Source: Pseudemcibacter aquimaris (GTDB lineage: Bacteria; Pseudomonadota; Alphaproteobacteria; Sphingomonadales; Emcibacteraceae). From it: 64,000 nt of DNA. The notes beneath the pieces were generated by a model. That model ran no database searches. It was not told the DNA's origin and saw nothing but the letters and a program-made list of their open reading frames with translations. Below are positions 1,273 to 61,252 of this stretch, in pieces. Within the stretch, counting starts at the first letter, position 1. Every line of letters begins with the position of its first letter. The position numbers and the translations under genes are program-made. The stretch is taken from assembly GCF_028869115.1 (NCBI RefSeq), contig NZ_CP079800.1, forward strand, positions 1,426,001-1,490,000, in the 5' to 3' direction.

Positions 1273-1683
1273 TCACTGTATATTCAGAATGTTATCCGGA
1301 TTACCTTTGTAATCGACGCTTCTAAGATCACCATTAATTGTTGATGAAATACGTTGGCGGAAGTTGCTGAATAATTCGGATTTTACCACATCAATCGCTT
1401 CGTCCATCATCACGGTATATCGGCGGTTTTCACTGTTTGAAATGACCGATGAATTCAAAATAGTGCCGCGAAAATTATGACCAAGATAAGTGCCCATCAC
1501 ACGGTCACCGACCGCAGGCCATTTAACGTTACTTTTTATTGATGCGGATAAAGTATTCCAATCGCGGTAGCCATGTTGTTTGGCTATCGCCTCAAGCGCT
1601 GCACTATGGCTTAATTTAATATTCTGATCGGATAGATATTCACGCAGGCGTTTAGCTTGCGATTTTAAATTTTCAATATTCAT
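1273..1683 (-). CDS. Glyoxalase-related domain protein, 136 aa
   Basis: The N-terminal 60 residues carry the pattern LSHSAALEAIAKQHGYRDW, typical of the glyoxalase-related C-terminal domain found in many alphaproteobacterial 'glyoxalase superfamily' proteins, where it stands alone or behind a glyoxalase fold. The rest (about residues 60-136) is a small beta-rich region (GDRVMGTYLGHNFRGTI) that I cannot place. There is no signal peptide, so it is likely cytoplasmic. I chose the ATG at 1683 rather than the one four codons upstream because GGAG lies seven bases before it. The gene is monocistronic with its own terminator. Its biochemical role is unknown. Confidence 0.75.
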   Translation of the reverse strand: MNIENLKSQAKRLREYLSDQNIKLSHSAALEAIAKQHGYRDWNTLSASIKSNVKWPAVGDRVMGTYLGHNFRGTILNSSVISNSENRRYTVMMDEAIDVVKSELFSNFRQRISSTINGDLRSVDYKGNPDNILNIQ

Positions 1684-1934
1684 TGTTATCTCCATTCATA
1701 TGGATGATACCGACAGGGGCCCGCATTGCTGTTTGGTCCATATATGGATAAACAAAATATTTCTTTTCAAGGAATTCACCTTGCTTTCGCTGCGGGCGGC
1801 TGGCTTCCCTAAGGCCGAGAGGTTTAATAAGTGCTAATCACATTTTAGTCAAGTGGTTGTGTTAAGTCTTGCGATGATTATTTATGGTGTTAGTATGCCT
1901 GCGAGAACAGGGAGTTATTAAGGAAAAAATAAAA
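1684..1934. other. Intergenic region with a GC-rich patch and short hairpins
   Basis: This 251-base gap separates two divergent genes. It contains a 12-base palindrome TCCATATATGGA (1737-1748) and a GC-rich patch at about 1768-1825. Small inverted repeats occur there, such as CAAGG(1768-1772)/CCTTG(1779-1783) and GGCTT/AAGGCC near 1802-1815. A 22-codon frame starting at the ATG at 1744 (ending at a TAA at 1810-1812) runs through the patch but has no convincing ribosome site. Promoters for both neighbours must lie here. I cannot name a known RNA element. Confidence 0.3.
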
Positions 1935-34503: not shown

Positions 34504-36498
34504 ATGAAAAAGCTTGTTTTTTTATTATTCATTTTGCCAACTGTTTCTTTTGCGGAACAAAAGCCGTTTGATTACATGGATGTATTTGAACTTGAATGGG
34601 CAACCGACCCCCAAATTCGCGGTGATAATGTGATTTATGTCCGAAATTTTATGGATATTATGAAGGACCGCCGCAGAAGCAATATCTGGCAAATCGACAG
34701 TGATGGCAATAATCATCGTCCCATGACAACGGGATTAAATAATATGCGCAGCCCGCGTTTGTCACCGGATGGGTCATTGCTCGCGTATCTTTCTAATGAA
34801 AGTGGCAAGACGCAGATTATGATGCGCTTTATGGATAGTGGTGAAACATTTGAACTGGCGCAACTTCAAAATGGCGCCAGCAATATAAGCTGGTCGCCAG
34901 ATGGTAGTTATATTGCCTTCACTGCATTTGCGCCAAAAGAACCGGAAACATATGCACCGCTTCCAAGCGCACCAAAGGGGGCGGAATGGGCGAAAAAGCC
35001 CGTTGTTTATGATAAAACCTTATTCACACGAAATGGCAGTGGTTATGGCAGTCTCGGTAATGATCATATTTTTGTTGTACCTGCGCTTGGTGGTACGGCA
35101 CGCCAGATAACAAGCGGGGAATTTAATCATAGTTCATCATTAAGCTGGGCCAAGGATGGCTCAAAAATATATTTTTCAGCAAACCGTCATGACGACCATA
35201 TTGACGAACCACAAAATAGTGAAATTTATAGTGTTGATGTGAATAGTGGGGAAATCGTCGCATTAACGGATAGGTTTGGCGCAGATAGAAGCCCAGCGGT
35301 ATCGCCAGATGGTGAAATGATCGCATACCTTGGATTTGATGATGTGCGTAGTGAATATCATAATAGCCATCTTTACGTCATGAATATTGACGGCAGTAAT
35401 AAACGCATGATCACGGATGGCATGGATATCAATGTTGAAAGCATAAAATGGACATCCAGAAATAATGAAATCTATATTGCTTATTCGGAACAGTCACTTG
35501 GGAAGGTCGCCAAATTATCATTTAACGGTAGAATTTCCGATGTAACTGATAAAGTTGGCGGTACGTCAGTAGGTCGCCCATATGGCGGCGGTGATTTTGA
35601 TGTGGATGAACGTGGCAATGTAGCCTTTACAATCGGTTCCGTTCACGATCAATCTAATATTGCTGTTGCTGGCGAGGGGCAAATCACAGATTTAAACGCA
35701 GATTTGTTGCCGCACCGCAAATTGGCATCAGTAGAAGAAATTAATTATAAATCCAGTCATGATAATATCGATATCCAAGGCTGGCTTATGAAACCAGCAG
35801 ATTTTGATGCGAGTAAAAAATATCCTTTAATCCTTGAAATTCACGGTGGCCCCATAAGCCATTATGGCCCGTATTTCGCCGCAGAAATGCAATTAATGGC
35901 AAGTGCAGGTTATATGGTGCTTTATGTCAATCAACGCGGCAGTACCAGTTATGGTGAGGACTTCGCAAACCTTCTGCATCATAATTATCCAAACTATGAT
36001 TATGATGATGTGATGAGCGGTGTTGACCACGTAATTGGCATGGGCAATGTTGATGAAGACCGCCTTTATATCGCAGGTGGTAGTAACGGTGGTATTCTAT
36101 CGTCATGGGCCATCGGTAAAACAGACAGGTTTAAGGCAGCAGCCGTAATCAAGCCGCTTACCAATTGGGTGACGGGGGTGTTAAACTCTGCACTTGCCAG
36201 ATTTAGTTTCAGATATGAATTTGCCGATGCGCTTTGGGATAATCCGGAAGAATATTGGAAACGTTCACCATTATCGCTTGTTGGTAATGTAACAACGCCA
36301 ACAATGCTAATGACCGGTGAAGAAGACGTCACGACACCAATTGGGGAAAGTGAACAATATTATCAAGCCCTAAAAATGAAAGGCGTAGAAACCATATTAG
36401 TCAGAATTCCCGGGGCTGGACACGGTATTGCCAATCGTCCAAGTCAGCTGATTACCAAAACACAGCATACGATTAAATGGTTTGATGACCACAAATAA
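34504..36498 (+). CDS. S9-family prolyl oligopeptidase-like peptidase, 664 aa, exported (copy A)
   Basis: A signal peptide (ending VSFAEQ) is followed by a beta-propeller with TolB-like repeats (SPRLSPDGSLLAYLSNES, ISWSPDGSYIAF) and a C-terminal alpha/beta hydrolase domain. The catalytic triad is readable: Ser527 in GGSNGG, Asp608 in GEEDVTTP and His640 in GAGHGI; the oxyanion segment is HGGPISHYGP. Such enzymes release di- or tripeptides or short peptides in the periplasm. It is clearly paralogous to the gene at 42734-44752 (for example FDYMDVFELEWATDPQ against FDWMDVFEIEYANDPQ). Confidence 0.93.
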   Translation: MKKLVFLLFILPTVSFAEQKPFDYMDVFELEWATDPQIRGDNVIYVRNFMDIMKDRRRSNIWQIDSDGNNHRPMTTGLNNMRSPRLSPDGSLLAYLSNESGKTQIMMRFMDSGETFELAQLQNGASNISWSPDGSYIAFTAFAPKEPETYAPLPSAPKGAEWAKKPVVYDKTLFTRNGSGYGSLGNDHIFVVPALGGTARQITSGEFNHSSSLSWAKDGSKIYFSANRHDDHIDEPQNSEIYSVDVNSGEIVALTDRFGADRSPAVSPDGEMIAYLGFDDVRSEYHNSHLYVMNIDGSNKRMITDGMDINVESIKWTSRNNEIYIAYSEQSLGKVAKLSFNGRISDVTDKVGGTSVGRPYGGGDFDVDERGNVAFTIGSVHDQSNIAVAGEGQITDLNADLLPHRKLASVEEINYKSSHDNIDIQGWLMKPADFDASKKYPLILEIHGGPISHYGPYFAAEMQLMASAGYMVLYVNQRGSTSYGEDFANLLHHNYPNYDYDDVMSGVDHVIGMGNVDEDRLYIAGGSNGGILSSWAIGKTDRFKAAAVIKPLTNWVTGVLNSALARFSFRYEFADALWDNPEEYWKRSPLSLVGNVTTPTMLMTGEEDVTTPIGESEQYYQALKMKGVETILVRIPGAGHGIANRPSQLITKTQHTIKWFDDHK

Positions 36499-42733: not shown

Positions 42734-44752
42734 ATGAAACGGTTATTTATTCTTATCTCTATGATCATGATGATGCCTTTTGCGGCAAATGCGCAAAAGA
42801 AAAATTTTGACTGGATGGATGTGTTTGAAATTGAGTATGCAAATGATCCACAGTTCACCGCTGACGGTGAAAGCATCATATATGTACGCACATTTATGGA
42901 TGTGATGAAAGATCGCAAGCGCAGCAATCTGTGGATCGTTGATACGGATGGGGATAATCACCGTCCGCTTACCATGGGATTAAATAACAATTCAAACCCG
43001 CGTATTTCACCGGATGGTACCATGCTTGCCTATACATCCAATGAAAGCGGTAAGTCACAAATTATGGTTCGTTTCATGGATACGGGGAAAACTCATCAGG
43101 TGGCGCAGCTTCAAAACGGTGCATCACGACTAAGTTGGTCACCAGACAGCAGCATGATCGCCTTTAGCGCCCATGTGGATGGTAAACCGAAATCATATGC
43201 ATCATTGCCCAAGGCGCCAAAGGGCGCAGAATGGGCGAAACCAGCAATTTATATTGATGAATTACAATTCCGCCGTGATGGCAGCGGATATGTAAAACCG
43301 GGCAACAGCCATATTTTCGTTGTTCCGGCACTTGGTGGTACTCCGCATCAGGTAACAAGCGGTGAATTTAATCATTCATCTGATATTGCCTGGGCGCAGG
43401 ACGGTGAAACACTTTATTTTTCAGCAAACCGTCACGATAATCATAAATCAGAAACGCGGGATAGTGAAATTTATTCCGTGAATATCGCAAGCGGTGAAAT
43501 CGCACAAATGACCGGACGATTTGGCCCAGATTCAAATCCGAAAATTTCACCGGATGGCAGACGTATTGCATATGTTGGCTATGATGATAACCGTATGGGG
43601 TATCATAATTCGCATGTTTATGTGATGGATGTTGATGGCACAAATATTCGTGACCTGACGCCGGAATTTGATCGTAGTGTTGGTACGTTCCATTGGGTGA
43701 ATAATGCTATTTATTTCCAGTATACCGATAAAGGGATCAATAAAATCAGTCGTGTGAATATGTCCGGTGATATTTATGATGTTACAGAAGGCGTAAGCGG
43801 TACATCATTTGGTCGTCCTTATGCAGGCGGCACATTTAATGTCAGTAAAAACGGTGAAATCGCCATGACATATGCGACCGCACTGGATCAGGCCAATATT
43901 GGGCATGTTGATCGTCGTGGTGGGGATGTTACCCAAATAACCGATATTAATGCTGATCTGTTAAATCATCGTAAATTAGGGCGCGTTGAAGAAGTTTGGT
44001 ATAAATCAAGCCATGATGGCCTTGATATTCAAGGATGGCTTGTATACCCAACCGATTTTGACGCGAGCAAGAAATATCCATTGATCCTTGAAATTCATGG
44101 TGGCCCTTTTGCGGCTTATGGCCCACATTTTGCGGCGGAATTACAGTTAATGGCCAATAAGGGCTACATGGTTCTTTACACAAACCCCCGTGGATCAACC
44201 AGTTATGGATATGATTTTGCCAATGAAATTCACCATAACTATCCAAGTAATGATTATGACGATCTGATCAGTGGTGTTGATCATGTTATATCAATGGGTA
44301 ATGTTGATCCTGACAAATTATATGTCACCGGCGGCTCCGGCGGTGGTGTGCTTAGTTCATGGATCATTGGTAAAACCGACCGCTTTAAAGCGGCGGTTGT
44401 TGCAAAGCCTGTTATTAACTGGACCAGCTTTACACTTTATTCCGATATGTCGTTATCGTCTGCAAAATATTGGTTCGGTGCAATGCCGTGGGATGATCAG
44501 GAACAATATTGGCGCCGTTCACCATTATCACTTGTGGGTAATGTTTCAACACCGACAATGTTGCTTACGGGTGAGGCGGATTTAAGAACGCCAATGCCGG
44601 AAAGTGAACAATATTATCAGGCCCTTAAAATGCGTGAAGTGGAAGCTTCACTGGTACGCATACCTGGTGCATTTCATGGTATTACAGCACGTCCGTCAAA
44701 CTTGATTACCAAAATACAACATGTTGTGAAATGGTTCGACGAACATCCGTAA
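42734..44752 (+). CDS. S9-family prolyl oligopeptidase-like peptidase, 672 aa, exported (copy B)
   Basis: A signal peptide (ending FAANAQ) leads to a TolB-like beta-propeller (NPRISPDGTMLAYTSNES, LSWSPDSSMIAF) and an alpha/beta hydrolase domain. Catalytic Ser535 lies in GGSGGG, the aspartate in TGEADLRTP and the histidine in GAFHGI; HGGPFAAYGP is the oxyanion segment. It is a close paralogue of copy A at 34504-36498, clearly more than half identical by eye along the whole length. The nucleophile elbow GGSGGG differs from GGSNGG in copy A, and the spacing is about 6 kb with unrelated genes between. A ribosome site (GAGGGCG) precedes the ATG. Confidence 0.93.
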   Translation: MKRLFILISMIMMMPFAANAQKKNFDWMDVFEIEYANDPQFTADGESIIYVRTFMDVMKDRKRSNLWIVDTDGDNHRPLTMGLNNNSNPRISPDGTMLAYTSNESGKSQIMVRFMDTGKTHQVAQLQNGASRLSWSPDSSMIAFSAHVDGKPKSYASLPKAPKGAEWAKPAIYIDELQFRRDGSGYVKPGNSHIFVVPALGGTPHQVTSGEFNHSSDIAWAQDGETLYFSANRHDNHKSETRDSEIYSVNIASGEIAQMTGRFGPDSNPKISPDGRRIAYVGYDDNRMGYHNSHVYVMDVDGTNIRDLTPEFDRSVGTFHWVNNAIYFQYTDKGINKISRVNMSGDIYDVTEGVSGTSFGRPYAGGTFNVSKNGEIAMTYATALDQANIGHVDRRGGDVTQITDINADLLNHRKLGRVEEVWYKSSHDGLDIQGWLVYPTDFDASKKYPLILEIHGGPFAAYGPHFAAELQLMANKGYMVLYTNPRGSTSYGYDFANEIHHNYPSNDYDDLISGVDHVISMGNVDPDKLYVTGGSGGGVLSSWIIGKTDRFKAAVVAKPVINWTSFTLYSDMSLSSAKYWFGAMPWDDQEQYWRRSPLSLVGNVSTPTMLLTGEADLRTPMPESEQYYQALKMREVEASLVRIPGAFHGITARPSNLITKIQHVVKWFDEHP

Positions 44753-48381: not shown

Positions 48382-48822
48382 ATGGTTGAAATTAAACCAC
48401 TTTCACAAGATCAATATGATGATTGGTATCCACTATGGCAGGGGTATCTTACATTTTATGAAACAAGCCTTCCTGATGAAATTGCGGAGAATAACTTTAA
48501 GCGTTTCTTTGATGATAATGAACCAATTGGCGCATTTGGTGCTTATAAAGATGGCAAGCTTATTGGCTTTGTACATTATATATTTCACCGTACAAATTGG
48601 TCTCTAGTGAATACCTGTTATTTACAGGATTTATTTGCTGATCCAAACGTTCGTGGGGAAGGGATCGGACGCGCTCTTATTGAGGCCGTTTATGAAAAAG
48701 CAAAAGAAGAAGGGTGTGCACAAGTTTACTGGATGACCCAAAATCACAATAAAACTGCAAGACGTCTTTATGACCGTATTGCCGATGATCACGGGTTCAT
48801 GGTTTACGAAAAAGATTTATAA
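48382..48822 (+). CDS. GNAT-family N-acetyltransferase, 146 aa
   Basis: The fold is clear: LQDLFADPNVRGEGIGRALIE (motif VRGEGIGRAL), then QVYWMTQNHNKTARRLYDR. The last segment (TARRLYDRIADDHGFMVYEK) is typical of the PA2578/YhcW-like small GNATs. It follows the membrane protein gene by one base. The stop overlaps the convergent kinase gene by six bases. The substrate is unknown. Confidence 0.9.
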   Translation: MVEIKPLSQDQYDDWYPLWQGYLTFYETSLPDEIAENNFKRFFDDNEPIGAFGAYKDGKLIGFVHYIFHRTNWSLVNTCYLQDLFADPNVRGEGIGRALIEAVYEKAKEEGCAQVYWMTQNHNKTARRLYDRIADDHGFMVYEKDL

Positions 48823-49881
48823 TTTCATCAATCGTTTTTCAGGAAGAATGACAGTTGCGGTGGTACCTATTCCGTATTCACTGGTAAGTGTAAATGTACC
48901 ATTATGTGCCTTGATCAAGTGATCAACGATCGCAAGACCAAGGCCGGTGCCTTCTTCATCCAGCTCGTGGCTGTCATTTGTTTGTTCAAATGGCTTTAAC
49001 ACTTCCTCGATACGTTCTTCAGGGATGCCGATACCATTATCAGTAATTTCGACTTTTACCCCTTCGCCAGGTGCCAGTGTGATTGTGCAAATAACGGTGC
49101 CGCCTTCAGGTGTATATTTTACCGCATTGGATATCAGATTGATAAAAATCCGTTTTATGCTGTGCAGGTCGCCGTAAACTTCATATTCACGGTCAGTGTT
49201 ATAACCAATGGTGATGTTCTTATCATCGGCCTTGGATTGGATCATTTTAAGGGCTTCGCTTAAACAATCATTCAGACGGAAATAATCTTCGCGTAACTGC
49301 CATTTGCCGGATTCAATTTTGGAAAGATCCAGTATGTCATTAATAACGGTTGCCAAGTGATCGCCACTATTTTTAATATCGCGAAGATATTCTTTATGTT
49401 GCGGGCTTTTAATCTCACCACCAAGGCCGTTCAGCATAGCGTCAGAAAAACCCATAATCGCATTTAACGGCGTTCTGATTTCATGGGACATGTTGGCAAG
49501 GAAAGCCGATTTTGCCTCATTGGCTGCTTCTGCTCTTGCTTGTGCTTCTTTCAGTTTTGTGTTCCAAATGGCAAAGAAAATAATGATAACACTAGCGAAA
49601 ATAATAACCTGCCACAGAAGGTCATAATCAATTTGTGGTTCTGCTTGTAAGCCAACCCAATTTCTTGAAATGATGCCTTTTTGTTCTGTCGTAATTGATG
49701 AAAGTGCTTTTTGCATTGCGCTTGCAAGCAGGGGTAAATCTTTTCTGACACCAATGGCGTTTTCACTGCCGTATTCTGTTTCACCGACTGTTGAGATATT
49801 TGAAAGCGATCTTTCTGCAGAATGATATGTTGCGAGCGGTAAGCTGCCAACTGTGGCGTCTACTTCGCCACTTGAAACCAT
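48817..49881 (-). CDS. C-terminal part of a split BvgS-like kinase: end of fourth sensor domain, TM, HisKA, HATPase
   Basis: This 354-codon frame is in phase with the gene at 49885-52677 and separated from it by a single TAA and one codon. It starts in the middle of a solute-binding domain (SSGEVDATVGSLPLATYH, RNWVGLQAE), then has one membrane helix (residues about 88-106), HisKA with His133 in NMSHEIRTPLNAIMGFSD, and HATPase with NLISNAVKYTP, DNGIGIP and GTGLGLAIV. The ATG at 49881 has no ribosome site and no signal peptide follows, so the fragment is unlikely to be made as a working sensor unless the stop is read through. No receiver domain follows. Confidence 0.85.
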   Translation of the reverse strand: MVSSGEVDATVGSLPLATYHSAERSLSNISTVGETEYGSENAIGVRKDLPLLASAMQKALSSITTEQKGIISRNWVGLQAEPQIDYDLLWQVIIFASVIIIFFAIWNTKLKEAQARAEAANEAKSAFLANMSHEIRTPLNAIMGFSDAMLNGLGGEIKSPQHKEYLRDIKNSGDHLATVINDILDLSKIESGKWQLREDYFRLNDCLSEALKMIQSKADDKNITIGYNTDREYEVYGDLHSIKRIFINLISNAVKYTPEGGTVICTITLAPGEGVKVEITDNGIGIPEERIEEVLKPFEQTNDSHELDEEGTGLGLAIVDHLIKAHNGTFTLTSEYGIGTTATVILPEKRLMKL

Positions 49882-49884
49882 GGT

Positions 49885-49887
49885 TTA
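49885..49887 (-). other. In-frame TAA splitting the four-domain sensor kinase
   Basis: The codon order is Val-Asp-Ala-TAA-Thr-Met-Val-Ser-Ser. The equivalent segments in the three upstream repeats read EALFALSYGDID, EALRAVSSNQAD and DALRALSASEVD, so the stop stands exactly where leucine is expected. A TTA leucine codon differs from TAA by one base. Confidence 0.85.
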
Positions 49888-52677
49888 GGCGTCAACGATA
49901 GAATCTACCTCGATTACATTGATATTCGGGTAATCACGCTTAATCATGTCTGTAATATCAAAATCTTTTACTTGAGCAATGGTTTTTCCGCTAAGGGCGG
50001 CCATGTTGCTATAAATTTCGCCGCCTTGACGGCTGAAAATCATATGAGAAACACTGTTGATGCTACTGGTAAAAGTTAGATATTCATTTCTGGCTGCAGT
50101 TTCTGCCAAGATAGGTACGGCATCGGCGGAACCAGACCTGATCATATTTAAGCCTTCTTCCAGTGTTTGATTGCCGACCCATTGAAAATCAATGCCAAGT
50201 CTTTGTTCCATGATTTCGAGGTAATCAGCGCCCATACCGTCAATTTCACCGTTGTCATTGATGAAAATTAATGGTGGAAGATTGGGTTCAAAAGCAAGAC
50301 GGACGACAGGGTTGTCGGCAAGCCACTCTTTTTCTGCATTCGTTAATCCGATATCTACGCGGCTTTCATTTTCAATCGTTGTGCGCCATTTAGAAGAAAT
50401 TTGGCGAATTTCATTATCAGTTAAATGATTTAGCGCTTTATTTATGATGCTCGATAGGATTTTCTTTTCTTTAAGCGTGCCAAAGTGATGATTGATGGTT
50501 GGGTTGCCCATAATCATATCCTTACCGATAACACGTAATCCAGGGATAAAGTTTTTCTCAATAATGTAATTTAAGAATACCAAGTTACCAGGGACAACGT
50601 CGACTTCGGATGCAGATAGGGCGCGTAATGCATCAAGAATATTATCAAATTCAATGAATTCGTTGTCCGGCAATTTTTCGACGTATGCTTCAGATAGAAT
50701 ATAGCCTTTTACAAGACCTATCGTCTTGCCTTCTAGTTCTTCTGGCGTATCAATATCTAAACTATTTGTTCTACCCATAATGACATTCTGCATTTGCAGA
50801 TATGAATCCGTGAATTCAATATATTTTTGGCGTTCGTCATTTTTATTCGCACTATGGATTAAATCAATTTCGCCTGAACGAAAACGTTGAAACATCTCGT
50901 TCCATGGAATTTCTTCTGCGTATTGGAATTCAAGTCCAGTGCTTTGTGAGATCAGATCAAGATAATCAATGGCAATGCCCATCATATTACCGTTTTCCGT
51001 ATAACTGAACGGGGCGGAACCAGAAGGGTTAGTCACAGTCACAATCGGATTATTTTTAATCCATTCAATTTCTTCAAAAGTCAGATCAATGATGGATAAG
51101 TTGGTATTTAACCCCATTTCTTGCCAACGTTGCGATATTTCAAGAAATTCTGAAGTCGGCACTGTATCCATTGATTTTTGCAAAATATCAATCAAGATAC
51201 TGTTTTCATGAAGAGCCGCGAACCTGTGATCAACGATTTTAATGTTTAAAAATTTATTCTCACCAATAATTTGAAGATTAGGGATAAAGGATTGTAAAAT
51301 CGTAAAGTTAATGGTGATCATATTGCCAGTGTAAATATCGGCTTGATTGCTTGATACAGCACGTAAGGCTTCTTGAATTGTTCCGTATTCAATTAAGTCA
51401 AGTTCAGGATATAAGTTTTTATAATCTGATGTCGTTGAATAACCGGAAACTAGGGCAATTCTTTTGCCTTTTAGGTCTGCGATGCTATTTATTGGCTTTT
51501 CGCCAATTCGTCCGACATTGACCAATGGAATTTCAAGGTAAGGTTCTGTGAAGGACGCATATTCTTGACGTTCTTCACTAAGTGCTGCACTGTGTATTAA
51601 GTCCAGTTCACCGTTTCTGAACCCTTCCATCATTGGATTCCAGTGTTCTTGCTCGACAAATTCAACCTTAAGACCAGCCCGCGCGGTAATTAATCTTAAA
51701 TAATCAGCTGCGAACCCACGCACCTCACCATTTTCAACAAAATTAAACGGGGCAATTGAAAAGGGGTTAGCAACACGGATTGTAGGGTTTTCTTTAATCC
51801 AGTTTTGTTCCTGGGTTGTTAAACCTAAACTGTCATTGGTAGCAAGTGACATATCAACTTGCCATTTTCTTGATATTTCCAGGAAATCTTGATTTGAAGT
51901 CGCCTGCATGGCTTTATCAAATATATCGATGATGATTTGATTTTCCTTTAATGCCGCAAAATGCTGGATGACGGATGGGTCATCCAATAACTTGTTTACA
52001 TTTTTAAATTCAACATTTGGGATCAAGTTTTGAATGACAGTATGGTTTATGGTAACCAGATTACCTGTGAAAATATCAATATCCCCGTAAGAAAGTGCAA
52101 ATAATGCCTCTCTAACCGTATCATATTGAATGAATTTTCCATTTGGAAATTTATTCATATAATCATCTGATGTCGCAAAACCAGCAATAACACCAATCGT
52201 TAATTCATTCATCTGTTCAGGTGAATTTAATTCCGGACCGCCAATTCTGCCATAATCAACCATTGGGATATCAATGTATGGAGCCGAAAAAGACATATAC
52301 TCAAGCCTGTCCGCGCTCTTAATCACTGTATGCATAAGGTCAATTTCACCATTACGCAGCATTTCCATCATCACATTCCATGGTTTTGCTTCTGGTATTT
52401 CAATTTGCAAACCAACTTTTGATGAAAGTAAACGGATATAATCGATGGCGAGCCCCTCAACACCATTTTCATTGGTGAATATAAAAGGGGCAATTGTAGA
52501 TGGATTTGCAATACGGATAACCGGATTTTCTTCTATCCAACGCTTTTCTTCTTCGGTTAAGGGGACGTTTGTGTCCTGCGCTAATGCATTGCCCATCATC
52601 ACGCTTGAAAACGTGATGAATGACATGATGATATATGTGAATATATTTTGTGTAAAAGTATGCTTCTTAACGTGCAC
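49885..52677 (-). CDS. N-terminal part of a split BvgS-like kinase: four tandem solute-binding domains, 930 aa
   Basis: The start is a GTG (52677) before a signal region (IIMSFITFSSVMMGNALAQ). Three complete SBP_bac_3/Venus-flytrap domains follow at about 38-283, 285-533 and 536-783, each opening with a copy of EEENPVIRIANP-like sequence (IEENPVIRIANPS, IKENPTIRVANPF, IKNNPIVTVTNPS). A fourth (ADNPVVRLAFEP) starts near 785 and is cut by the stop. BvgS has two such domains; four is unusual. The ligand is likely a small metabolite (amino acid or organic acid). Without the kinase half the protein would be a periplasmic binding protein. Read with the next frame it would be a sensor kinase of about 1286 residues. 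Confidence 0.88.
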   Translation of the reverse strand: MHVKKHTFTQNIFTYIIMSFITFSSVMMGNALAQDTNVPLTEEEKRWIEENPVIRIANPSTIAPFIFTNENGVEGLAIDYIRLLSSKVGLQIEIPEAKPWNVMMEMLRNGEIDLMHTVIKSADRLEYMSFSAPYIDIPMVDYGRIGGPELNSPEQMNELTIGVIAGFATSDDYMNKFPNGKFIQYDTVREALFALSYGDIDIFTGNLVTINHTVIQNLIPNVEFKNVNKLLDDPSVIQHFAALKENQIIIDIFDKAMQATSNQDFLEISRKWQVDMSLATNDSLGLTTQEQNWIKENPTIRVANPFSIAPFNFVENGEVRGFAADYLRLITARAGLKVEFVEQEHWNPMMEGFRNGELDLIHSAALSEERQEYASFTEPYLEIPLVNVGRIGEKPINSIADLKGKRIALVSGYSTTSDYKNLYPELDLIEYGTIQEALRAVSSNQADIYTGNMITINFTILQSFIPNLQIIGENKFLNIKIVDHRFAALHENSILIDILQKSMDTVPTSEFLEISQRWQEMGLNTNLSIIDLTFEEIEWIKNNPIVTVTNPSGSAPFSYTENGNMMGIAIDYLDLISQSTGLEFQYAEEIPWNEMFQRFRSGEIDLIHSANKNDERQKYIEFTDSYLQMQNVIMGRTNSLDIDTPEELEGKTIGLVKGYILSEAYVEKLPDNEFIEFDNILDALRALSASEVDVVPGNLVFLNYIIEKNFIPGLRVIGKDMIMGNPTINHHFGTLKEKKILSSIINKALNHLTDNEIRQISSKWRTTIENESRVDIGLTNAEKEWLADNPVVRLAFEPNLPPLIFINDNGEIDGMGADYLEIMEQRLGIDFQWVGNQTLEEGLNMIRSGSADAVPILAETAARNEYLTFTSSINSVSHMIFSRQGGEIYSNMAALSGKTIAQVKDFDITDMIKRDYPNINVIEVDSIVDA

Positions 52678-52771: not shown

Positions 52772-53731
52772 TTATTGAAGGTTGTTTTTCAAAAACTCTC
52801 TAATGGTTGAAATGACCATGTCCTTGGCTTCACTTAAAATCGCGTGACCGGCGTTTGGAACGACAACGTTGGTTGCATTTGGCACCATATCTGCGAATTT
52901 TTTACATGATTTTGGTGCTGCTTCATCAAATTCGCCGCAAATCATTAACACCGGTACTTTCACTGTGTGGAGTTGAGGGCTGATGTCATAATCTTGAAGG
53001 GTACCGTTGGCTGTAAATTCGCTTGGCCCCCACATGGTGCGGTACATCGTTCTGTTGCCACGTTTTGCGTTATCACGAAAACCATAATCAACGCATTCGC
53101 CGTGGCACATATGCTGGTCATAAAATGCATCTTCTGCGGTACGGTATTCCGGATCATCAAATGTTCCGGCGGCCTCGTGTTTGTTAATCGCATCTTGGAA
53201 ATGTTGTGGCATCATGGAAATCCATTCGCGATTATCAGCAACCCATTGTGGCGTTGAAATAAGCGGGCTTCCGAAAATCGCGGCTTTTAATCCCTTTTCA
53301 TTTTTGACCGCATATTCAGCGGATAATGTACCACCCCAACTGTGGCCCGCGATAATGACTTCCTCTAGATTAAGAGCTTCTCGTATCTGGCTGATTTCCT
53401 TGACGAAATGTTCAACGGTCCATGTTGATTGATCATTAATGTTATCGATAAATTTTGTGGACATACCATTGCCAAGTTGATCATAAAGGATCACCGGATA
53501 TTCATCCGCAAGTTCGACATACCCCATTAAACCACGGTGTGTTCCGCCCGGACCACCGTGCATGACAATGATGGCAGGTTTTTTACCAAGGTGTTCCATG
53601 CCATTCATTCGGTACCAAAGTTTGCCTCCATCAACCTGAATATATCCTGCTTGATCAGGGTCTTCATGGGCGAATGCAGTGATGCTGCATAGTGAAATTG
53701 CAACAATGGTCAGTAGGCGAAAAAATGTCAT
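52772..53731 (-). CDS. Proline-iminopeptidase-type alpha/beta hydrolase, 319 aa, exported
   Basis: A signal peptide (ending SITAFAHE) precedes an alpha/beta hydrolase of the proline-specific peptidase family: HGGPGG as oxyanion segment, the nucleophile Ser in GHSWGG, an aspartate near CGEFDEAAP and the histidine in NAGHAI. These enzymes release N-terminal proline or hydrolyse related amides. Two cysteine pairs (HMCHGEC and ICGEF..SCKKF) are present, which suits a periplasmic protein. Stands alone on the minus strand. Confidence 0.88.
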   Translation of the reverse strand: MTFFRLLTIVAISLCSITAFAHEDPDQAGYIQVDGGKLWYRMNGMEHLGKKPAIIVMHGGPGGTHRGLMGYVELADEYPVILYDQLGNGMSTKFIDNINDQSTWTVEHFVKEISQIREALNLEEVIIAGHSWGGTLSAEYAVKNEKGLKAAIFGSPLISTPQWVADNREWISMMPQHFQDAINKHEAAGTFDDPEYRTAEDAFYDQHMCHGECVDYGFRDNAKRGNRTMYRTMWGPSEFTANGTLQDYDISPQLHTVKVPVLMICGEFDEAAPKSCKKFADMVPNATNVVVPNAGHAILSEAKDMVISTIREFLKNNLQ

Positions 53732-59304: not shown

Positions 59305-60293
59305 ATGCGCACGTTACTTGTTCCGTTTATTTGTAGCAGTATTTTCGCGTTAACTTCACCAGCAGTATCTCAGGATATTCTTGATCGTCAATCTGACGAT
59401 CCGCTTGTTACGGCGGCATATGCCAAGACGGCTACACCATCTGGTGTTCCTTACCGTGAAAAGGATATGGGGCCAAACAGTCAGGATTGGTTTGAAGGTG
59501 ATCTGGAAACTGCAAATATTGTTTTTGCATCTTCTCCACTTGAAGAAAGTTCATATAGCTGGCGTGGACGCCGTGAAGGATTTATGGGCAATTATGCCAA
59601 AGCGGTTGATATCTTTACGCAAGGGCTGGAACTATACCCGGAAAGCTATGCACTATACCGTTACCGCGGTTATCACCTTGTTAGAAACTATCAGTTTGAA
59701 GAAGGCTTAATCGACCTTCGCCGTGCAGAAGAACTAATCGATGGTGTTGATGTGACACCTGAACAAGAAGGCATTCCAGGAAAATCAAATTATAGCCCAA
59801 GCACATTCAAGCGAAATATCTATTTCTATATCGCACAAAGCAGCATGGCGACGGGTGATTATGCGACCGTTATCGATTATATGGACAAATCATATGAAGC
59901 GAACATGCTTAGAGATAAGGATGATTTCCTTGTGTCGACTGTGTTCTTTAATATATGGCCATGCGCAAAATGGGTCGCCATGAAGAAGCGATCGAAATGG
60001 TAAAAGCTGTTCCAAACGGCCTCGATATCATTGATAACCATTCATATTATGATGCTGTGATGTTCCTAAAAGGGCGTTATAGCCGCGAAAGATTTGAAGG
60101 GCGCGCAGATAGCCTTGGTCGTTATGCAATGGCAATGGTTGATATGTTTGAATCACAAGAGCCAGCAGAAAATGACCGTGAACGCGCAGACCGTACAGCA
60201 AAAGCAGAAAGTGCAAAATCATTGTTTACCGAAGTGACAAACAATAATCCGAAAGGATATTGGCTCGCGGAAGTAGAGCTAGCGGCGCTTTAA
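59305..60293 (+). pseudogene. TPR-type exported protein, interrupted by a one-base frameshift
   Basis: The first part (59305-60003) has a signal peptide (ending SPAVSQ) and a TPR-like region (YSWRGRREGFMGNYAKAVDI, YPESYALYRYRGYHLVRNY). Near 59951 the frame changes: AATATATGG should probably be AATTATATGG, since the intact paralogue downstream reads TLWKYMALRKMGKHAE where this gene gives FFN, then (in the next frame) YMAMRKMGRHEE. The other frame continues to 60293. With one T restored, a protein of about 329 residues results. It is either a fresh pseudogene or a sequencing error. The ribosome site AAGGGGCC is intact. Confidence 0.85.
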
Positions 60294-60319
60294 TAAAAAA
60301 TAACCCTAGGGGAGTATCT

Positions 60320-61252
60320 ATGAATAAATTACTGCTAATGATTGCGGTGATGGGCATGAGTATGCCTGTTTACAGTCACGCGCAAAGTCATGATGACATC
60401 GTGAAAGAGGCATACGCCAAAACACATACACCGACAGGACGCGAATTCCGCGAAACAAATTATGGTGGTGATTTTCAAGCAATGCTGGAAAAAGATCTTG
60501 AAATCGCAAAGGCAGTAATGGAAGTAGCGCCAGACCGTGCATCAAGTTATGAATGGCTTGGCCGTAGGTATGGTTATCTTGGCCGATTACCAGAAGCGAT
60601 CGAAGTTTTTTCAGAAGGACTTAAAAAATTCCCTGAAAATTATAAGCTATACCGTTACCGTGGAAGGCATCTGGCGAGAAATTATCAATGGGATCAGGCA
60701 ATTAGCGATTACAGAAAAGCTGCGGAGCTTTTAAAAGAGCATGATGATAGCTATGAACCAAATGGTATTGCCAATGCATTGGGGCTTACTATTTCGACAT
60801 TCAAACAGAACATCCCATATTATATGGCGCAAACCAGTATGGCGATCGGTGATTATGAAACCGTTTTTGCCGGAATGGATGAAGCGATCAATGTACCTGT
60901 TAAATTTGCCCATATGGAACAACTGGTTCCGGTGACATTATGGAAATATATGGCGCTTAGAAAAATGGGTAAACATGCTGAGGCAGAAGCAGAACTTAAA
61001 AAAGTACCGGATGAATATGATTTGATTGAAAATGATCAGTATCACCGTGCGGTTAATTATTTAAAGGGCAATTACACCCGTGATGAGTTTTTAGCGATTG
61101 CAGATGTAATTGGGAAATACACAGTCGCCATGAAGGATTTATTTGACGGCGATGTCGAAAATGCGAAAAAGCTGTTTAATGAAACAACAGACAGCGGTCC
61201 ACGCGGCTTTTGGCCATCAGAAGCAGAACTTCTAATGCTAGAAGGTAAATAA
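60320..61252 (+). CDS. TPR-repeat exported protein, 310 aa
   Basis: The ATG at 60320 follows AGGGGAG; a signal peptide (MNKLLLMIAVMGMSMPVYSHAQ) begins the protein. Two TPR-type helical pairs are visible near residues 75-140 (YEWLGRRYGYLGRLPEAIEVF, NYKLYRYRGRHLARNYQWDQAI), and more irregular helices follow. TPR proteins bind partners. The tandem copy upstream (59305-60293) is a paralogue with a frameshift. It lies 19 bases upstream of the FGE-like gene and the two are probably one transcript. Confidence 0.82.
   Translation: MNKLLLMIAVMGMSMPVYSHAQSHDDIVKEAYAKTHTPTGREFRETNYGGDFQAMLEKDLEIAKAVMEVAPDRASSYEWLGRRYGYLGRLPEAIEVFSEGLKKFPENYKLYRYRGRHLARNYQWDQAISDYRKAAELLKEHDDSYEPNGIANALGLTISTFKQNIPYYMAQTSMAIGDYETVFAGMDEAINVPVKFAHMEQLVPVTLWKYMALRKMGKHAEAEAELKKVPDEYDLIENDQYHRAVNYLKGNYTRDEFLAIADVIGKYTVAMKDLFDGDVENAKKLFNETTDSGPRGFWPSEAELLMLEGK

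Follow-up and report, generated by a model that had tools for sequence, protein, structure and literature searches.

A probable recent loss within a genus-specific expansion of periplasmic Venus flytrap sensor histidine kinases

Two adjacent reading frames on the minus strand of a 64,000-nucleotide stretch of the Pseudemcibacter aquimaris genome (here, the window) together resemble one sensor histidine kinase, and a single stop codon lies between them. The locus raises the question of whether these frames are two genes, one gene that has been broken, or one gene that has been misread. We conclude that the window gene was probably inactivated not long ago, as one of a family of periplasmic Venus flytrap (VFT) sensor histidine kinases that has expanded specifically in this genus.

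One reading frame and its internal stop

A preliminary description of the locus had reported two in-phase frames parted by one TAA. This is confirmed in the minus-strand frame 52677-48817, which runs for 1286 codons and has the TAA at codon 931 (49887-49885) as its sole internal stop. Over 52677-48817, the remaining two frames of the minus strand contain 72 and 135 stops and the plus-strand frames contain 43 to 97, so the joined frame is not a product of chance. Leucine had been predicted at the stop site, and the column does favor it: the repeat alignment places Leu in this column in all three of V1, V2, and V3. Among the 157 other VFTs of the genus, 128 have Leu there (64 of the 76 membrane-proximal domains and 64 of the 81 distal ones), and nearly all the others have a hydrophobic residue. 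In the family HMM, the stop maps to about position 155 of the 238 in the fourth VFT, a site that homology to the second VFT of BvgS places in lobe 2. The features of the locus are collected in Table 1.

Table 1. Coordinates of the interrupted kinase gene, its predicted domains, and its neighbors in the window
Feature	Position	Strand	Remarks
Upstream ORF, 930 aa, GTG start; signal peptide, V1-V3, and first two thirds of V4	49885..52677	-	Ends at TAA
In-frame TAA, codon 931	49885..49887	-	Column is Leu in 128/157 genus VFTs
Downstream ORF, 354 aa; end of V4, transmembrane helix, kinase	48817..49881	-	First ATG 3 nt past TAA
V1, distal-class VFT (SBP_bac_3)	51832..52569	-	Pfam, family HMM, tree
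V2, distal-class VFT	51094..51831	-	Pfam, family HMM, tree
V3, distal-class VFT	50356..51093	-	Pfam, family HMM, tree
V4, membrane-proximal-class VFT, cut by stop	49636..50355	-	First part matches BvgS VFT2
Single transmembrane helix, LLWQVIIFASVIIIFFAIW	49564..49620	-	Sequence inspection
HisKA, phospho-acceptor His in SHEIRTPLN	49306..49515	-	Pfam
HATPase_c; complete set of N, G1, F, and G2 motifs	48835..49170	-	Pfam and motif check
Proline-iminopeptidase-like hydrolase, syntenic neighbor	52772..53731	-	87% aa identity in G001
GNAT acetyltransferase, syntenic neighbor on other side	48382..48822	+	82% in G001, 55% in G010

Sensor domains and relation to BvgS and EvgS

An SBP_bac_3 profile search along the frame, which had been proposed as a check, recovers four stretches (Pfam, E = 2e-71), all in the upstream ORF. 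The stop parts the sensor from the kinase, as had been claimed, since HisKA (1.6e-21) and HATPase_c (5.3e-28) match the downstream ORF. The limits of the VFTs were taken from the family HMM (V1, q37-282; V2, q283-528; V3, q529-774; V4, q775-1014). Pfam finds no PAS, receiver, or Hpt domain, and the frame stops directly after HATPase_c; the joined gene would thus encode a PAS-less, nonhybrid kinase. Inspection recognized no response regulator gene adjoining the kinase, which therefore looks like an orphan, and a scan for promoters and terminators gave counts equal to those of shuffled sequences.

The four VFTs fall into two classes. Pairwise identity is 35 to 46% among V1, V2, and V3 versus 22 to 28% between V4 and these three. 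A tree built on 64 VFTs of the genus parts the last (membrane-proximal) domain of each array from all other VFTs (SH-aLRT 100), and V4 is found among the membrane-proximal domains. V1, V2, and V3 cluster with the distal VFTs of same-locus genes in four other species (SH-aLRT 98), and V1 and V2 fall in a subgroup inside this locus clade (SH-aLRT 96). On the evidence of these comparisons, V4 belongs to an ancient second, membrane-proximal class, and V1 to V3 belong to the distal class. The earlier picture of four tandem sensor repeats is thus right in number, but the four are not equals. The tree fits a stepwise duplication of distal VFTs at the locus atop one conserved proximal VFT; we can only infer the order of the steps, since the branching inside the locus clade is only partly resolved.

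In the PDB, the sensor is most similar to BvgS (4q0c; E = 1.4e-41) and next to EvgS (9ilw; E = 1.4e-39, spanning two VFTs), and the V4 fragment preceding the stop matches VFT2 of BvgS, the membrane-proximal domain. The window gene shares with BvgS of Bordetella (PDB 4q0c and 3mpk) tandem periplasmic VFTs, a membrane-proximal class, one transmembrane helix, and a HisKA-HATPase kinase. However, BvgS has two VFTs together with PAS, receiver, and Hpt domains, whereas the window gene has four VFTs and none of these three. EvgS of E. coli is a hybrid kinase that differs from the window gene in the same three domains, and the NCBIfam EvgS model scores 202 bits on the window gene against a cutoff of 1995. 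BvgS and EvgS proper are marked by exactly two VFTs, a PAS between the transmembrane helix and the kinase, and the receiver and Hpt domains, and the joined frame departs from them on every count. It does carry SBP_bac_3 and HisKA in one polypeptide, as the BvgS family does in the broad sense, and neither half alone does so. By domain content, the window gene is a member of the BvgS family in this broad sense, outside the PAS-receiver-Hpt layout of BvgS; the label BvgS-like suits the sensor and not the rest.

The published BvgS homologs carry from one to five VFTs (PMC4352136), so four VFTs are at the high end of the known range and not new, and the preliminary description's view of them as unusual is not borne out in the sense of novelty. 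PAS is absent in about 30% of BvgS homologs (PMC5829827). In those PAS-less kinases, as in the window gene, the VFT array is linked via the transmembrane helix directly to the kinase; the proteins analyzed there have two VFTs, whereas the window gene has four and is interrupted. On VFT-number variation among orthologs, or on the kinases of this lineage, the literature yielded nothing closer than PMC4352136 and PMC5829827.

The family and the locus within the genus

Among the 40 related genomes searched, strong relatives of the query are confined to the genus, where 11 of 12 genomes contain matches (one weak); the rest of the order has none or weak ones. Judged from these homology searches, the genus alone in its order has an expanded VFT kinase family. 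The window genome (G000) encodes 16 VFT kinases, of which 12 are intact (11 having two VFTs and one a single VFT) and four, the window gene among them, are broken. Sensor kinases rather than transporters account for 34 of its 36 SBP_bac_3 places; those outside kinases are a 506-aa frame and a transporter-sized frame with an internal stop. Further three-VFT kinases occur in the genus (L069, L102, L098, L117, and L138), and no second four-VFT gene was found there.

In two of the other broken kinases of the window genome (L078:4136-5756 and L080:5603-7118), a deletion reaches from midway through the proximal VFT to the ATPase domain, and in the third (L079:1581-5173) the reading frame changes within the proximal VFT. 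By comparison, about 1 to 2 of the approximately 42 other kinases of this genome are interrupted or short (a stop in the ATPase region; a short frame). The difference gives a Fisher p of 0.02 to 0.04, or 0.05 without the window gene, with the other kinases checked less thoroughly, and the higher breakage of VFT kinases is suggestive. Five of the seven localizable breaks lie in the membrane-proximal VFT, whereas a share of 0.29 would be expected (p = 0.025, a post hoc value that includes the prompting gene). Frameshifts in two-component genes amount to less than 1% within a genus in myxobacteria (PMC4603909); four broken sensors of 16 in one genome looks far above this figure, the two counts being made differently. 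Broken VFT kinases are also seen in sister species, with a frame change in G011 (L102:11782-14234), a TAG in G001 (L093:3922-6300), and a stop in the kinase in G005 (L120:7103-8389). L070 of G011, a different family member, is split by a frameshift near the window stop point, at model position about 184.

At the locus itself, the kinase of G001 lies between the same hydrolase and GNAT genes, has three VFTs, and carries five lesions. Two of these are in-frame stops and the other three change the frame; they leave frames of 250, 189, 86, 69, 85, and 433 aa, none is at the position of the window stop, and the breakage is independent of that in the window gene. The G010 ortholog (L067:6771-9158) is intact, with 807 codons and SBP_bac_3 and HisKA in one ORF. 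It shares the locus and 54% identity across V3, V4, and the kinase but differs from the window gene in having only two VFTs. The same-locus genes of G011 and G008, both cut by contig ends, hold two and at least three VFTs, respectively. The kinase and the hydrolase are not adjacent in G008, G010, and G011, where a molybdopterin-oxidoreductase-like gene and others intervene.

The genes of G008, G010, and G011 are open straight through the position of the window stop, so the split is not a conserved gene boundary, and the possibility that homologs are always divided at this point is rejected. Relative to intact orthologs the window frame is interrupted, as would be expected of a pseudogene. The intact 1286-codon homolog that had been anticipated was not found: orthologs hold two, three, or at least three VFTs, and no intact four-VFT version is present in the 12 same-genus and 28 other genomes or in the contig scans.

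Further observations concern other genes of the window. The TPR-protein gene at 59305-60290 (+) consists of two overlapping frames (59305-60000 and 59955-60290); its counterpart is a single 318-aa ORF in G008 (L068:3159-4112) and is split at another point in G001. From these alignments, it is likely a second pseudogene, and an intact paralog adjoins it (60260-61249). Two S9-peptidase-like paralogs (34504-36495 and 42734-44752, +) both match one G006 gene (63% and 75%). At 1276-1827 (-), a 188-aa gene of G010 aligns at 46% with one internal stop, and the window ORF there is only 140 aa, so its start may be lost.

Explanations for the interruption

The downstream ORF retains all kinase motifs. 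Branch lengths for the kinase part are 0.46 for the window gene, 0.46 for the intact G010 ortholog, and 0.49 for the G001 pseudogene. The retained motifs and a kinase part evolving no faster than that of the intact ortholog suggest a recent loss. Differences between the window and G010 genes are 0.19 at second and 0.58 at third codon positions, with dS saturated; because second-position changes are three times rarer, long purifying selection must have preceded the stop.

One lesion in 1286 codons indicates a recent loss, a polymorphism, or an error. If the stop were a sequencing or assembly error, the organism's gene would be intact and encode a 1286-aa four-VFT kinase. The single lesion agrees with an error, and also with a tolerated polymorphism; the complete kinase motifs, the unaccelerated kinase branch, and the nearest locus relatives, open through the stop site, all point the same way. 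However, the assembly is a single 3.37-Mb contig, the lesion is a substitution-type stop and not a homopolymer indel, and most syntenic genes at 42.7 to 61.2 kb are full length compared with their relatives, the TPR gene being the one other split. Moreover, two of the three further broken family members in this genome arose through deletions, which are not read errors. We regard an error as unlikely.

Alternatively, the two frames could form a functional pair, in which a secreted multi-VFT protein is made alongside a kinase translated separately via termination-reinitiation at the ATG. The 3-nt spacing of stop and ATG gives a context that permits reinitiation, and intact motifs are kept in both halves, but the cut lies inside one globular domain, a signal peptide is missing from the downstream frame, and inspection places the nearest Shine-Dalgarno-like sequence, GAGG, about 26 nt upstream of the ATG. 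The nearby split in L070 affects another member of the family and is due to a frameshift, and since no relative shares the split of the window gene, a functional division is very improbable. Read-through or recoding of the stop, yielding some full-length protein, is scarcely credible: the frame does stay open for 354 codons beyond the TAA, but TAA is the least leaky stop codon and also serves as the terminal stop of the window gene.

The more probable reading is a recent nonsense mutation in a sensor family with rapid gain and loss of members. Such an inactivation would be ordinary turnover within a family that has expanded recently, as the gene is one of 16 sensors of which four are broken. 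The intact ancestor, as domain searches show, combined a signal peptide with tandem periplasmic VFTs, one transmembrane helix, a short helical linker, and a plain HisKA-HATPase kinase. By analogy and homology with BvgS, for which this route has been shown, binding of ligand to the distal VFTs would have made the domains open and close, and this movement would have been relayed through the membrane-proximal VFT and the transmembrane helix to the kinase. Distal VFTs were probably gained by internal duplication, from two VFTs (G010 and G011) through three (G001) or at least three (G008) to four (window), a direction that is drawn from the tree, in which the branches of the locus clade are weakly resolved. 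Because the stop lies in the second lobe of V4, translation would end ahead of the transmembrane helix, and the product would be a periplasmic protein of three and two-thirds VFTs without a kinase. The kinase remnant, if made from the ATG, would lack a signal peptide and contain only the last third of the sensor domain.

More speculatively, the genus may maintain a fast-turnover sensor repertoire in which VFT kinases multiply, gain distal VFTs singly at fixed loci, and die mainly by breaks in the membrane-proximal VFT that sever sensor from kinase, and in which secreted VFT-only proteins left behind may keep a residual binding role; we consider this broader picture doubtful. A nonsense mutation in one sensor kinase is by itself ordinary. 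The part worth following is the variation in VFT number among orthologs at one locus: a single syntenic locus with two, three, at least three, and four VFTs is a natural series for the role of extra VFTs in a BvgS-family kinase.
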